Shown here piece after piece: positions 13,583-19,337 of a stretch of DNA of 64,000 nt. Numbering within the stretch: the first letter of the stretch is position 1; every line of letters starts with the position of its first letter. The notes under the pieces are model-generated. The model had not been told where the DNA came from and ran no database searches. It saw only the letters and a program-made list of their open reading frames with translations. The translations under genes were made by a program, and so were the position numbers. The stretch is from Myxococcota bacterium (GTDB taxonomy: Bacteria; Myxococcota_A; UBA796; UBA9615; JAKLKC01): NCBI GenBank assembly GCA_023150875.1, contig JAKLKC010000037.1:1-64000 (forward strand), given 5' to 3'.

Positions 13583-13752
13583 GGGGGGCACGGTGCTGAC
13601 GGACGGAGAGGAGCAGGCGCCGCTTCGTTCCCAGCGGCGCGGGGCCCCGCCGTGGCCGAGCACGGCGGAACAGGGCCTTCCGCTTGCCTCCCCGCCGCCG
13701 ACCCGCCATCCTCTCCGATGCGCCGGGGGGCTCGCGCGGGGTGGAGTCGACG

Positions 13753-16572
13753 ATGCCTTCGTCGCCCGGTCCGGTACAGGCAGATCGAGCCCGTCACCGC
13801 ACTGACGCCGGGCCCTCTGCGGCGGCGGCGAGGGGAGCCGGCGCGGCGGGTGGACGGCCGCTCCGAGGGCGGAGCGCCCTGTTCGTCCTCGTCCTGCTCG
13901 CCCTGGCGGCCCTCGGCCCGCCGGCGCGGGGGGCGGAGTCCGCCGTGGGGCGGGCGATGTTGGCCGGCCGTGCCGCCTTGGAGGAGGGGGACCTCCCCCG
14001 GGCGCTGGTCCAGTGGAGCCTGGCCCTGAGCCGGGCCCGAGGGGCGGGTGACCGGGGGGCCGAGGCCGAGTCCCTGCTCCACCTGGGGGCGGTCCACCGG
14101 CGCCTGCGACGCCACGCCGACGCCCGGGGGGCGTTCGAGGAGGCGGCCCGGATCGAGCGCTCCCTGGGCAACCCCGTCGGCGAAGCGGCAGCCCTCCACG
14201 ACCTCGGCCTCGTGGACCTCGACCTGGGAGCCCCGGAGCCGGCGGCCCGGAGGTTCGAACGGGCGTTCGGGGCCTTCCGGGAGGCGGGGGACCCCCTCAA
14301 GGCCGCGGGATCCCTGCTGGGCCTGGGGATCGCCGAGGGGGACCTCGGTCAGCTCCGGTCGGCCGTGGCCCGCTTCGAGGCCGCCCTGAGCCTCTTCGAG
14401 GCCGCCCGGGACGATCGAGGCGTGGCGGACGCGCTCAACGCCCGGGGAGCGGCCCTGCGCCTCCTGGGGCGACTCGGCCCCGCCCGGGACGACCTCGACC
14501 GGGCGGCGGCCCTCTACCGCCGGGTCGGCGATGCCAGCGGCGAACTGGACGCCCTGCACAACCTGGCGGCGGTCCTCCAGGATGCGGGGGAGGCGGGGCG
14601 GGCGGCGGAGCTGTACGCCCACTCCCGGGACGCCCTGCGGGCGCGCGGAGATCCCGAGGGCGCCGCCGCTGCGGCCCTGGGGGCGGCTACGGTGCTGCAT
14701 GCCGCCGGGGACCTCGACGGCGCCCGGGCGGCCTACGACGAGGCCCTGGAGCTGGCGTCCCGGGCGGGAGACGAAGGCATTGAGGCGGCGGTGGAGCTGG
14801 ACATGGGTGTCCTCGCCCTGGCGAGGGGGGACCACCGGGGCGCGCGGTCCCTCCTCTCCAGCGCGCGGGACCGGGCCTCTTCGCGCCGCGACCACGCCGG
14901 GGAGGCCCGGGCGTCCCTCGCCCTCGGCCGGGTTTTCGGGGAGATCGGGGAGGAACGCGAAGCGCGCCGAGCCCTCCAGCGGGCGGTGGAACTCACCCGG
15001 GGGGAGCTGCTGCCCGAGGTCCGCTGGCGTGCGCTGCACCTGCTCGGCCGTTCCGCCCTGGCGAAGGGCGACCCGGAGACGGGGATCGCGCGGCTGAGGG
15101 AGGCGGTGGAGGTGATCGAGGCCCTGCGGGACGGGCACGGGGCGGACGAACCCGCGGACGCGGGCCGCTTCCTCGCCTCCCGGGCCTCCCCCTACGAGGA
15201 CCTGGTGGGAGCGCTCCTCGCCACGGGGGACTCCCTGGGCGCGTTCCTGTACAGCGAACGCCTCCAAGTGGCCGACCTCCGGAGCGGCCTCCCCGCCGAC
15301 GACGGCGGGGGGGACCTGGTGGCCCGATACGACCGGTTCGCAGGAAGGGATCGAGCCCTCTCTGCCCGCCTCCAGGAGGCGCTGGGCGCGGCCGAGCCCG
15401 AGCGGGATCCCGAGAGGGTCGAGGCGCTGCGGGAGGGGCTCCGGCGGTCGCGCATCGAGTTCAGCGCCTTCGTCGACGACCTGCGGGAGTCCAGCCCCGA
15501 CCTCGCCTCGGCGGTGCGGGTCGACCCCGACGACCTCCAGGCCACCCGCCGGGCGCTGCCCGCGGACGTCGCCGTGCTCCAGCCGATGCTGGTGGGCGAG
15601 CGGCTGGTGCTCTTGGTGTTCACCCGCGAGTCCCTGGCGTTCGAGGAGCCACCCGTCGAGGCGAGGAAGGTGGAGCAGGCGGTGTCCCGAACCCTCAGGG
15701 CGCTCCGGTCCCAGGACCGGGCGGACCTCCCGCGCCTGAAAGAGGACCTGGGAAGGCTGCACGGCTGGCTCGTGGCCCCCGTCGCCCAGCACCTCGCCCG
15801 GGCCTCCACCCTGCTGGTCTGCCCCGGAGGCGCGTTGCGCTACCTGCCCTTCGCGGCCCTGTGGGACGGGGAGCGGTGGCTCGGCGAGACCCACGCGGTG
15901 GCGACCCTGACCCATGTCGGCTCGATCCGCGGCGCCGAGGGTGACCGGGCCCCCTTCCGTCTGCGGGACGGCGCGCTGCTGGCGATGGGGGATCCCGACG
16001 GCACGCTGCCCTCGGCCGCGCGGGAGGTGGAGGCGCTACGGTCCGCGTTCCCCGCGGGGCGCTTCCACCTGGGCGCCGGGGCCACCCGGGAGGCCCTGGC
16101 GAGGGACGCGCCGGGCAGGGCCGTGGTGCACCTGGCCACCCACGGCGTCCTGGACGCCTCGGATCCTCCGTCCTCCTTCATCCTGCTCGCCGGGGAGGGC
16201 GAGGCGGCGCGCCTCTCCTACCGCGAGATCCCCGCCCTCGCCGACGCCTTGGGCACCGCGCACATGGTGGTGCTGTCGGCGTGCGAAACGGGGATCGGGA
16301 TCCGGGGGCGGGGCGAGGGCGGCGAGGGCAGGGAGATCGCCGGCCTGGCCCACCAGTTCCGGCGCGCCGGCGCTCCGACGCTGGTGGCGTCGCTGTGGAA
16401 GGTCTCCGACGACGGGACCGGGGAGCTGATGAAGGCGTTCTATGCCGAGCTGGCGGCGGGGGCCGGGCGGGCCGTCGCCCTCGCCCGGGCCCAGAGGAAG
16501 CTCCTGCGGGACGAGCGGTTCGCCCACCCGTACCACTGGGGCGCGTTCGTGGTGATCGGCGACTGGACCTGA
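13753..16572 (+). CDS. Exported TPR-CHAT protease-like protein
   Basis: A 939-residue protein. A hydrophobic segment near residues 43 to 60 (LFVLVLLALAALG) probably exports or anchors it. Residues about 65 to 470 are tandem TPR helices with repeated HLGAVHRRLR-type pairs. The C-terminal 330 residues form a CHAT domain, a caspase-like fold. The catalytic dyad is visible as H797 in HLATHG and C844 in SACETG, and a late ASLWKVSDD motif completes the fold. CHAT proteases cleave partners recognised by attached repeats. The ATG at 13753 was preferred to the in-frame ATG at 13684. Its stop touches a 221-bp inverted-repeat element. Confidence 0.8.
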   Translation: MPSSPGPVQADRARHRTDAGPSAAAARGAGAAGGRPLRGRSALFVLVLLALAALGPPARGAESAVGRAMLAGRAALEEGDLPRALVQWSLALSRARGAGDRGAEAESLLHLGAVHRRLRRHADARGAFEEAARIERSLGNPVGEAAALHDLGLVDLDLGAPEPAARRFERAFGAFREAGDPLKAAGSLLGLGIAEGDLGQLRSAVARFEAALSLFEAARDDRGVADALNARGAALRLLGRLGPARDDLDRAAALYRRVGDASGELDALHNLAAVLQDAGEAGRAAELYAHSRDALRARGDPEGAAAAALGAATVLHAAGDLDGARAAYDEALELASRAGDEGIEAAVELDMGVLALARGDHRGARSLLSSARDRASSRRDHAGEARASLALGRVFGEIGEEREARRALQRAVELTRGELLPEVRWRALHLLGRSALAKGDPETGIARLREAVEVIEALRDGHGADEPADAGRFLASRASPYEDLVGALLATGDSLGAFLYSERLQVADLRSGLPADDGGGDLVARYDRFAGRDRALSARLQEALGAAEPERDPERVEALREGLRRSRIEFSAFVDDLRESSPDLASAVRVDPDDLQATRRALPADVAVLQPMLVGERLVLLVFTRESLAFEEPPVEARKVEQAVSRTLRALRSQDRADLPRLKEDLGRLHGWLVAPVAQHLARASTLLVCPGGALRYLPFAALWDGERWLGETHAVATLTHVGSIRGAEGDRAPFRLRDGALLAMGDPDGTLPSAAREVEALRSAFPAGRFHLGAGATREALARDAPGRAVVHLATHGVLDASDPPSSFILLAGEGEAARLSYREIPALADALGTAHMVVLSACETGIGIRGRGEGGEGREIAGLAHQFRRAGAPTLVASLWKVSDDGTGELMKAFYAELAAGAGRAVALARAQRKLLRDERFAHPYHWGAFVVIGDWT

Positions 16573-16790
16573 GAGGGTGTTCCCATCATGAACGCCTGCT
16601 GCGCGTGCCGAATGGCCTGCTGCGCCGCTTCCGCCTCGGTCGGCCGCGGGTCGGAGTACGCGTGGTACGCCAATCCCGCAGCCTCGGTCGGCGAAAACGG
16701 CTCGCGACGACCCTCAGCCCGCTGGCTACGGCGTTCACGGAAGTCCCCGGGGGATGCCCCCGGGGACTTCTTGCTGGGAACACCCTCTGA
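16570..16790. mobile_element. 221-bp element with 19-bp terminal inverted repeats (MITE-like)
   Basis: The left end (16570-16588) and the right end (16772-16790, inverted) agree at 17 of 19 positions around a core AGAGGGTGTTCCCA. Inside, just before the right end, is a perfect 14-bp stem with a 3-nt loop (16740-16770, GAAGTCCCCGGGGG arm). No transposase fits in the element. A miniature inverted-repeat element fits these facts; the inner hairpin may also end transcription of the CHAT gene, whose stop lies in the left end. No target-site duplication longer than two bases is evident. Confidence 0.45.
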
Positions 16791-16816
16791 GCGACCCGCG
16801 GAGGCACGGAAATGCG

Positions 16817-17290
16817 ATGAAGACGGCGTTCCACGTGGTGTACACGGTGCTGGCCCTGAACTTCCTGATCCCCGCGGCGCTCTACGCCATCGACCCCGCG
16901 GGATCCATGGCGTCGTTCCTGGCCCTCGACGCGGCGCTCGGGGGAGGGCCCTACGCCCACGCCGAGGACAGCGTCGTGTGGCGGGTGCTCGCCGTCGCCA
17001 ACGTGTTCACGCTGGGGTTCGGCTGCGTCCTGCTGCAGGTCGACCTGCGGCGCTTCTTCGCGGCCCTGTGGCTCCTCCTGTTCCTCAAGGCTTCGGCCTC
17101 CCTGGGGTTCCTGGTGGCGTTCGCCTTCGAGGGGCATCCGTTCCAGCTCGCCGCCTTCGCGCTGGACGCCGTCACCGTCGCCGCCATGTGGTTCTTCGCC
17201 ACCCGCGCCCGGGCGGCGATGGGCCAGGGGGACGCCGCCCCCTCCCGCGGGAGGGGGGCTCCGGGGATGGCCGCGGGAGGCGGCGATTGA
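16817..17290 (+). CDS. Four-span membrane protein of unknown function
   Basis: A 157-residue integral membrane protein with four hydrophobic segments: about residues 5-25 (YTVLALNFLIPAALYAI), 55-75, 80-100 and 110-130. A short Gly/Ala/Arg tail follows. No catalytic motif is visible, and the small four-span topology resembles DoxX-like or uncharacterised families without a firm match. The ATG at 16817 was chosen because upstream codons belong to the inverted-repeat element. It is a lone gene between the element and a lipoprotein gene. Confidence 0.55.
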   Translation: MKTAFHVVYTVLALNFLIPAALYAIDPAGSMASFLALDAALGGGPYAHAEDSVVWRVLAVANVFTLGFGCVLLQVDLRRFFAALWLLLFLKASASLGFLVAFAFEGHPFQLAAFALDAVTVAAMWFFATRARAAMGQGDAAPSRGRGAPGMAAGGGD

Positions 17291-17375
17291 CGCTCCCCGC
17301 CCGCCGCGGTAGACCTTGGCCTCGCCCCTCGATCCCCCCTCCCGCCCGGCGGGCGGACCCGACCGGGAGCCCGAC

Positions 17376-19337
17376 TTGCGTCCTTGGTCCCGAGCCCTCC
17401 CCCTCGCCCTGGCCGCCCTGCTGGCCGCCTGCACGACGGAACCCTCCGGCGACGACGACTCCGCCGGCGGGGATCCCGAGGTCTGCGACGGCGTCGACAA
17501 CGACCTCGACGGCGAGGTGGACGAGGACGTGATCGAGGGGGCCCCCCTCTGGCACCCCGACGCCGATGGCGACGGCTACGGCGACCTCTTCTCGATCTTC
17601 CGGGGTTGCGAGGGGCCCGAGGGGTACGTCGAGGACGGCTCCGACTGCGACGACACCGACCCCGAGGTCAGCCCGGCGGCCTCCGAGACCTGCGACGGCC
17701 TGGACGAGGACTGCGACGGCTACGAGGACGAGGACGCCGTCGACGCCCCGACCTGGTACCGGGACGAGGACGGGGACGGCTTCGGGGACGCTGGCGACGC
17801 CGCGGGCGCGTGCGGGCCACCGTACGGGTACGTCGGCGACGACACGGACTGCCAGGACGGCGACTCCGCCGTGTTCCCGGGCGCCCCCGAGACTTGCGGG
17901 AACGGCGTGGACGACGACTGCGACGGCGAGGTCGACACCGACTGCAGCCTCGTGGGCACCGTGGACCTCTCCGCCGCCGACGGGCGGATCGCGGGGACGG
18001 TCGAGGGGGATGGGCTGGGGTGCGCGGTGGCCTCGGCGGGCGACGTGGACGGCGACGGGATCCCCGACGTCGTCGCCGGCGCCTGCGGCGTGGACGTCGG
18101 GACGTGCACCGACACCGACAGCTCCGGGTGCGACGGCGGAGGCGCCTACGTCTTCCACGGCCCTCTGGAGGGTGCGGCGACCGCCGCCGGGGCCGCGGCG
18201 ACCTTCGTGGCCGAGGCGGCCTGGGACGCCGCGGGGACCTCGGTGGCGGCGGGGGACCTGAACGGGGACGGCGTCCCCGACCTGCTGATCGGCGCGCCCC
18301 GGAACTCCCGGGGCGGGGCGTGGGCGGGCGCGGTGTACGTGGTGCTGGGGCCGGTGGAGGGCACCGTCCCCCTTGAGGCGGCCGACGGGATCTGGGTCGG
18401 AGCGGAGCCCAGCCAGCTCGCCGGCGCGGCGATCGCCACCGGGGACGTCGACGGCGACGGCCTCGACGACGTGATCGTGGGCGCCCCCGGGGCCGGAGAC
18501 GAGGGAGAGGGCGCGGTCTTCGTGGTGCGCGGCCCAGCCACGGGCCAGGGCACCCTCGCAGAGGCGATGGTCCGCATCACCGGCACGGTGCCCGGTGGCG
18601 GCCTGGGATGGTCGGTGGCCGCGGCCTTCGACGCCAACGGCGACGGCGCCTCGGACCTGCTCGCCGGGGCGCCCGCCCGCTACGCCACCCACGAGGCGGG
18701 AGCGGCGGCCCTCTTCCTGAGCCCCCTCCCGGGGGACCTGGACGAGGGGGCGGCGGACACCCGCTGGACGGGGGAGGCCGCCGGCAGCGGAGCCGGCTGG
18801 GCGGTGGCGGTCGCCGGAGACACCGATGGCGACGGCGCCCTCGAGCTCCTCGTGGGGGCGATCTGGTCCGTGGGGGAGGACGAGGAGGGGGGCGGCGAGC
18901 TGCTCTCGGCCGGATCGGCCTACCTGGTGGGCGCCGCGGACCGGGGCCCGGTCCCCCTGGGCGAGGCCAGGGCGAGGATGCGGGGCGAGGCCGCCGGGGA
19001 CCGGGCGGGCTTCGGAGTGGCGGCCGCCGGGGACGTCGACGGGGACGGCCTGGCGGACGTGCTCGTCTCCGCCGCCTATGCCAACGGGGGAGGGAGCGAC
19101 AGCGGCACGGTCTACCTGCTGTACGGGCCCGTCGCCGGGGAGATCCCCCTCGGAGGGGCCGACGCGGCGCTCATCGGCGAGGCGAGCCAGGACCGCGCGG
19201 GGAGCGGGATCGCCGCCGCCGGGGACTTCGACGGCAACGGCCTCGGCGACCTGGTGATCGGGGCCGAAGGGGCGGGCGACGGCGACGTCGCGGACACCGG
19301 GGCGGTGTACGCCGTGCTGGGGGTCGGCTCTCCCTGA
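17376..19337 (+). CDS. MopE/FG-GAP-repeat lipoprotein
   Basis: A surface protein of about 653 residues. The TTG at 17376 gives an ideal lipoprotein signal (LPLALAALLAAC) with a GGGAG site upstream; a TTG at 17316 is an alternative. A short GDDDSAGG linker leads to about three MopE-type repeats with CDGxDxDCDG patterns and paired cysteines (residues 40-190). About seven FG-GAP/integrin-alpha-like blades follow, each with a calcium-binding DxDGDGxxD loop (GDVDGDGIPD, GDLNGDGVPD, GDVDGDGLDD and so on). It is probably displayed on the outer membrane and binds calcium; its ligand is unknown. Aspartate-rich repeats give the gene a strong GAC/GGC codon bias. Confidence 0.75.
   Translation: MRPWSRALPLALAALLAACTTEPSGDDDSAGGDPEVCDGVDNDLDGEVDEDVIEGAPLWHPDADGDGYGDLFSIFRGCEGPEGYVEDGSDCDDTDPEVSPAASETCDGLDEDCDGYEDEDAVDAPTWYRDEDGDGFGDAGDAAGACGPPYGYVGDDTDCQDGDSAVFPGAPETCGNGVDDDCDGEVDTDCSLVGTVDLSAADGRIAGTVEGDGLGCAVASAGDVDGDGIPDVVAGACGVDVGTCTDTDSSGCDGGGAYVFHGPLEGAATAAGAAATFVAEAAWDAAGTSVAAGDLNGDGVPDLLIGAPRNSRGGAWAGAVYVVLGPVEGTVPLEAADGIWVGAEPSQLAGAAIATGDVDGDGLDDVIVGAPGAGDEGEGAVFVVRGPATGQGTLAEAMVRITGTVPGGGLGWSVAAAFDANGDGASDLLAGAPARYATHEAGAAALFLSPLPGDLDEGAADTRWTGEAAGSGAGWAVAVAGDTDGDGALELLVGAIWSVGEDEEGGGELLSAGSAYLVGAADRGPVPLGEARARMRGEAAGDRAGFGVAAAGDVDGDGLADVLVSAAYANGGGSDSGTVYLLYGPVAGEIPLGGADAALIGEASQDRAGSGIAAAGDFDGNGLGDLVIGAEGAGDGDVADTGAVYAVLGVGSP

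Follow-up and report, generated by a model that had tools for sequence, protein, structure and literature searches.

The 64,000-nucleotide stretch of Myxococcota contig JAKLKC010000037.1 analyzed here (the window; assembly GCA_023150875.1) carries, directly behind a gene for a TPR-CHAT protein, a 215-bp inverted-repeat element (16573-16787). The element is short, non-coding and multi-copy, with terminal inverted repeats (TIRs) and a target duplication, and is thus a miniature inverted-repeat transposable element (MITE). It is best read as a member of a MITE superfamily in which the hairpin core is conserved and the ends are exchangeable. We consider it probable (about 0.72) that this MITE is moved in trans by DDE transposases of the IS5 kind and that its core hairpin is selected as an RNA module. 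MITEs are usually defined by common ends, their middles counting as expendable; in this family it is the middle that is conserved, the ends vary and compensatory change is strong, and for these reasons the cargo seems to be the selected part. The question of why MITEs of bacteria are so structured can therefore be tested on this family.

The initial annotation had placed a 221-bp MITE-like element at 16570-16790. The element is real; that span, however, comprises the 215-bp element plus both copies of its TGA target duplication (16570-16572 and 16788-16790, plus strand). The TIRs, GAGGGTGTTCCCATCA at the window-left end (16573-16588) and TGCTGGGAACACCCTC at the window-right end (16772-16787), carry no strand assignment. 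The terminal inverted repeats annotated earlier were confirmed as arms 16569-16592 and 16768-16791 (24 nt, 88% complementary), and so was the perfect 14-bp stem (16740-16753 and 16757-16770), which forms a subterminal hairpin with a 3-nt loop on the minus strand (16740-16770). By eye, the letters of this stem show compensated changes among copies L001, L002 and L007 (genomes, contigs and loci are cited by our own G, C and L handles). The 13-base end motif GAGGGTGTTCCCA has exact matches in the window at the two element ends only; at up to two mismatches it occurs in 3 places (the third with 2 mismatches), versus a shuffle mean of 2.37, so that the weight rests on its exactness and on the pairing of the ends. 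A coding interior was considered and rejected, in agreement with the earlier description: the minus-strand frame that is open in the window copy is interrupted by an in-frame TAG in sister copies, L002 among them (by eye; this concerns the minus frame only). For the segment 16560-16800, the RNA fold has a z-score of -5.99 on the plus strand and -9.67 on the minus strand, and on either strand 0 of 200 shuffles reached it; below, "sense" refers to the window minus strand.

The family is mobile, and it duplicates its target. Nine places match the element in its own genome (G000; 6.9 Mb, 180 contigs) at E below 1e-30, two of them truncated, and further copies are present in the genomes of relatives. 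Among 50 copies with GAGGG ends, the triplets touching the element are equal and of the form TNA in 34, and equal and of another form (TAG, CAA) in 2; in 11 the triplets are unequal but one or both are TNA, and 3 have neither. The table of triplets and stop codons was entered with 55 loci, from which L116, L120, L125, L077 and L158 were dropped by end-position or motif filters; L006 (flanks like those of L005), L162 and those G187 loci that lack an end pair had been left out beforehand. An end pair was missing from 17 of 52 loci in an earlier survey. Empty sites were compared for three G338 copies (L143, L150 and L151) against five other genomes of its genus; this evidence comes from sister copies, and the 71 genomes of the class that were searched include no other member of the window's family. 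The L143 site is uninterrupted in three of the five relatives (G378, G367 and G303), and the L151 site has junction-spanning matches in all five. At the L150 site, spanning matches were obtained in G377, G367 and G303, and partial, one-sided ones in G369 and G378. The flanks overlap by exactly 3 bp in L143 versus G378, L150 versus G377 and L151 versus G377. The MITE reading proposed from the window is thus upheld by nine own-genome copies, by the duplication of 3 bp, by the empty sites known for sister copies and, as described below, by a transposase gene with ends of the same kind in a relative.

Two side observations concern particular copies. L005 and L006, about 4.1 kb apart on contig C94 of G000, are alike in the element and in the near flanks, and may be one locus copied by a tandem segmental duplication. 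The gene end equivalent to that of L143 holds other DNA in two relatives, namely a 345-bp strong foldback in G377 (L176) and about 175 bp with hairpins seen by eye in G369 (L168); this gene end seems to be a repeated landing site.

The dispersed copies, duplications and sister-copy empty sites also speak against a conserved RNA gene or an exapted terminator of the CHAT operon that does not move. The structure is indeed conserved, and the site does lie behind a stop codon, with the next gene starting 27 bp further on; yet a simple scan of 16450-16900 contained no terminator-like site, so that the suggested exaptation as a terminator is unsupported, and Rfam returned no match at threshold. In window 16400-17000, only mir-9223 appeared, at 24.2 and 22.1 bits versus a gathering score of 53, and eight sister loci had no Rfam match at E<=0.5. 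This explanation is largely refuted, and we regard it as very improbable.

A transposase that could serve the element was found in a relative. Contig C187 of G187 (L109) codes for a protein of 409 aa that contains DUF4096 and DDE_Tnp_1; the contig starts with GGTGTTTGTGAAAA, an end whose first letters are cut by the contig edge, and the element closes with ACCCAAACACCCTC|TTA. The same genome contains 140 + 134 matches to AGAGGGTGTTNNNNA. In G338, a DUF4096/DDE gene at locus L096 adjoins the end GAGGGTGTTCATCAGGA. Thus, the full-length transposon with the same ends that the initial annotation proposed to look for is present in a relative, truncated on the left by the edge of the contig, and was not found in the element's own genome. 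The match of its ends to an IS5-type DDE transposon of a relative supports the view that the element is an IS5-derived MITE; the IS5 subgroup with TNA targets is, presumably, the IS1031-like one. Among end types, the transposase link was made for the GAGGGTGTT type only.

The conserved structured core occupies 16612-16712 on the minus strand, where it is matched by two covariance models, R1 (E 1.3e-20) and R2 (E 1.2e-17), the window copy being among the building sequences of both. On the same strand, the core comprises a 5' loop motif, GTCGCGAGC (16700-16708), a 3' loop motif, GCGCAGCAGG (16616-16625), the two GACCGA sides of a 6x6 internal loop (5' strand, 16681-16690; 3' strand, 16633-16645) and an apical hairpin, GGCGUACCACGCGUACUCC (16653-16671). 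Outside the core lie, also on the minus strand, a second variant of the 5' motif, GTAGCCAGC (16721-16729; GTAGCGAGC in sister copy L002), and a second copy of the 3' motif, GCGCAGCAGGCG (16593-16604).

The interior is shared with sister copies in G004 and G053, and the core extends much further. R1, built from 13 sequences, matched 6 of 71 class genomes at E<=1e-4 and 18 of 377 phylum genomes at E<=1e-5. In the 79 aligned matches, 24 of 28 pairs had changes on both sides, and 92.7% of cells were paired, compared to 30-39% with slid partners; 0 shuffles were as high on any of five measures. R2, built from this 79-match alignment, had matches at E<=1e-6 in 33 of the 377 genomes, which belong to 27 of 234 genera. 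A later set, A4, comprised 13 loci outside the building set of R2, in 14 rows (twelve further genomes and one more G142 copy, one row being a weak opposite-strand match); there, double changes were found in 25 of 28 pairs, with 93.3% of cells paired versus 34-42% when slid. The structure is therefore deeply conserved, and it is asymmetric between strands. In the 79-match alignment, G-U occupied 145 cells and A-C 14 (61 versus 13 distinct cases of pair type and genome), and in the later 14-row set the counts were 30 and 2; RNA energy was lower for the sense strand in 46 of 48 distinct elements. The preference for G-U over A-C, roughly 10:1, points to selection on one strand. The initial annotation had opposed mobility to uniqueness combined with conservation as an RNA. 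The nine copies exclude uniqueness, but the hairpin is conserved all the same, and the either/or is too simple.

A pattern search of genome contigs returned nine loci, including L066 (Acidobacteria), which has no R1 match, and L070, which has a weak one of 27 bits. The core pattern had 0 matches in viral contigs, and a plasmid search with L075 and L216 yielded no match. As a side observation, the core match L201 adjoins an apparent tRNA gene (by eye), and the same G126 contig holds two more weak core matches.

Around this one core, the ends differ. The G053 copies combine wholly different ends with the same interior, and the core matches as a whole are surrounded by about a dozen unrelated end types, among them GAGGGTGTT.. 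in several variants; GCAGGYTGCTGMAAA with GAGCRCCGATCAGGTAA (G053); CAGCCTGATGATCTAT (G014); CAGCCCTCGGGAAAGC (G042, imperfect); GAGCGTGTCATGCACC (G156); TCATGAGTTCCCATCC with GTTTCCACA (G142); AAGATGTGTCCAA (G356); TAGAGCCTCGC (G119); AGTCCCCTGGAAACC (G313, G150); GTCCGAAAACAAGT (G256); and CCCGGATTATTCATGA (G353). Elements ended by CCCGGATTATTCATGA (L206-L235) occur in 12 of 377 genomes; the end pairs in G110, G145, G224 and G186 enclose elements of 174-187 bp whose loop motifs are identical or alike (by eye). Among 15 loci, seven (L083, L196, L198, L199, L201, L204 and L205) had no perfect inverted repeat of at least 9 nt, and L040 and L194 had only wide ones. For the G053 ends, there were 15 matches at up to one mismatch, none of them paired at insertion sequence (IS) distance. 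Two miniature forms with CCCGGATTATTCATGA ends were also noted, the 63-bp L215 and the 39-bp L223, and this end has one match in a viral contig (L236, IMG/VR). Since the same RNA-like structure is kept across the phylum while the ends differ, the data suggest that the hairpin itself is under selection.

This pattern bears on two further explanations. If the element were an ordinary IS5-derived MITE with an unselected interior, its fold and covariation would stem from foldback arms homogenized by gene conversion or snap-back repair. MITEs generally form stable hairpins (PMC2229807 and PMC10969869, in the parts consulted), and other foldbacks are present in these genomes. However, homogenized arms would lose their unpaired loops, whereas here CGUNGCGAG, GGCCGACCGA and GCAGYAG stay largely constant from one end type to another as the stems change; in the 79 matches the motifs are CGUNGCGAG, AGGCGUAC (partner GUACG), GGCCGACCGA and CGCAGNAG. 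This objection is qualified by the 14-row A4, the most distant set, in which the motifs are weaker. On balance, we consider an unselected interior improbable.

It is possible, if doubtful, that the core is instead conserved as DNA, i.e., as a single-stranded hairpin or a protein-binding platform that transposition requires whatever the ends, and has no RNA function. Where ends are visible, the core travels inside transposon-like elements; the subterminal motifs stay while the ends differ; and the 63-bp L215 of G265 keeps just its ends plus GUAGCGAG...GCAGUAG. Conversely, a strand-specific hairpin is not needed for the cut-and-paste of duplex DNA by DDE transposases, and the 10:1 ratio and the better folding of the sense-strand RNA fit an RNA more simply. 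In addition, a 147-bp element of G338 (L105:399-545) has the same GAGGGTGTT ends around a different, multi-hairpin interior, and the core thus seems non-obligatory for that end type.

Insertions fall on stop codons in excess. In GC-rich hosts, the triplet touching the element is the stop codon of the neighboring gene in 27 of 34 copies. For G000, G004 and G156, the fraction is 8 of 12, compared to 0.23 of the surrounding TNA sites that are either stops or intergenic (P 0.0014); for G338, G303, G367, G369 and G372, it is 19 of 22 versus a background of 0.18 (P 9e-12), and for G187, 4 of 16 versus 0.055 (P 0.0097). The excess keeps its direction with a background restricted to the YTNAR context, and a first count (8/12, 3/16 and 6/7) ran in the same direction. 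For other end types, a cruder open reading frame test without a coding score placed 5 of 5 CCCGGATTATTCATGA copies, 2 of 4 in G014 and 2 of 2 in G042 at stops, with 0 of 2 for L085 and L200 and a stop 2 nt from the end at L197. In the sense direction, G187 favors TAA, and hosts with larger genomes mostly TCA. The arrangement of neighboring genes (tandem versus convergent) was considered as well and showed no clear pattern.

In the window, the element was inserted at the TGA stop of the TPR-CHAT gene (13684-16572, plus strand; 962 aa, listed with a TTG start). The earlier statement that the left end of the element contains this stop holds insofar as the TGA is the stop; judged by the empty sites of sister copies, it is target DNA rather than transposon DNA. 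The proposal that the insertion affected the end of the gene does not hold, given that the stop is preserved through the duplication of the TGA and that the CHAT domain reaches the end of its profile. In Pfam, the product matches CHAT (1.5e-60) and TPR_12 (2.2e-37). Because the CHAT domain is complete to profile position 289 of 289, at residue 960 of 962, the protein looks intact. The element opposes the gene in orientation, and a transcript reading through from the CHAT gene would therefore hold the antisense strand of the hairpin.

The mechanism that we favor is as follows. IS5-kind DDE transposases supplied in trans would recognize the TIRs and insert the element, in most cases at a TNA site, duplicating 3 bp; the enzyme that moved the window copy would have been of this kind. 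When a stop codon is hit, the upstream protein would be spared, because the duplication restores the stop. Most copies in GC-rich hosts would then be found at gene ends for two reasons, the rebuilding of the stop and the low number of such triplets in the rest of GC-rich DNA, which may together account for the excess over other intergenic sites. Such insertion offers a simple harmless route into dense GC-rich genomes. The selected form would be the minus-strand hairpin transcript, a structured RNA rather than single-stranded DNA, and by analogy with ERIC and NEMIS (PMC2229807, in the part consulted) this module may act on transcripts crossing the element, through processing, stability or read-through, and in this way keep insertions tolerated. 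A more far-reaching version is speculative and, in our view, unlikely: the family would be a phylum-wide selfish RNA-hairpin module that takes its ends from many unrelated IS, is moved by whichever transposase fits, is tolerated through rebuilt stops and a conserved RNA function, and is a satellite of transposons in general.

A number of observations weigh against transposition in trans combined with selection of an RNA. The assembled genome of the window has no DUF4096 match at E<=1e-6 and no exact end pair at IS distance, and the second end of the L096 IS was not found in G338; multi-copy IS are often lost from binned assemblies. The P values at stops depend on a null of codon-usage gene calls made in this analysis and on pooled, non-independent copies of the same genome, and in the cruder test the G053 copies overlap a stop in 0 of 8 cases (with an ambiguity of about 1 nt in their boundary). 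The orientation to the gene whose stop was hit is biased (23 copies opposed, as in the window, and 8 in the same direction) and differs between hosts; because it varies by host, we read the bias as more likely a target asymmetry than a sign of function. As to the RNA, single-stranded DNA hairpins likewise tolerate G-T, and the scan of 16450-16900 showed neither a promoter-like nor a terminator-like site. The E-values of the models are rough, without a shuffled-genome control; the A3 and A4 alignments were fitted to the models, which favors structure and somewhat favors G-U over A-C; and in the G-U count the rows of A3 are non-unique, with 14 of the 61 distinct cases on one pair.

Known families share parts of this anatomy. 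MITEAba12 of Acinetobacter, related to ISAba12, is likewise a short non-autonomous IS derivative with TIRs and a target duplication; its fold energy is given as -23.99 or -26.94 kcal/mol (Mfold) in the part of PMC6382973 considered, versus about -149 for the window copy (ViennaRNA). Unlike MITEAba12, the window element has a fixed-loop core, shares that core with different end types and occupies stop-codon sites. ERIC, RUP and NEMIS resemble it in their length of 100-200 bp, TIRs, duplication and long stem-loop transcripts; ERIC affects upstream mRNA in an orientation-dependent manner, and NEMIS is a proposed RNase III substrate (PMC2229807). As far as that source was consulted, each of these families has one TIR size, in contrast to the dozen or so end types here, a comparison made by description only. 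The REP sequences of the GTAG and CGTC superfamilies are palindromic, lie mostly downstream of genes and bear an unpaired GTAG or CGTC tag at one end (PMC3733652). If the element were of this type and depended on a RAYT (Y1) transposase for its movement, its core, which reads CGT(A/C/T)GCGAG, would contain the counterpart of the tag. However, the motif is variable at its third letter, and REPs, as described in the portion of PMC3733652 considered, are 20-40 bp palindromes, linked to RAYT in the GTAG type, without the long TIR-plus-duplication anatomy of this 215-bp element; on these structural grounds, a REP origin is hardly credible. No title among the literature matches listed refers to a Myxococcota element of this kind or to MITEs at stop codons, which is weak evidence of novelty.

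Downstream of the element, the next gene runs in the same direction as the CHAT gene (16817-17290, plus strand; 157 aa, without a Pfam match), its start codon lying 27 bp past the right TGA. It is followed by a gene for an FG-GAP repeat protein with MopE-type metal-binding motifs (17316-19337).

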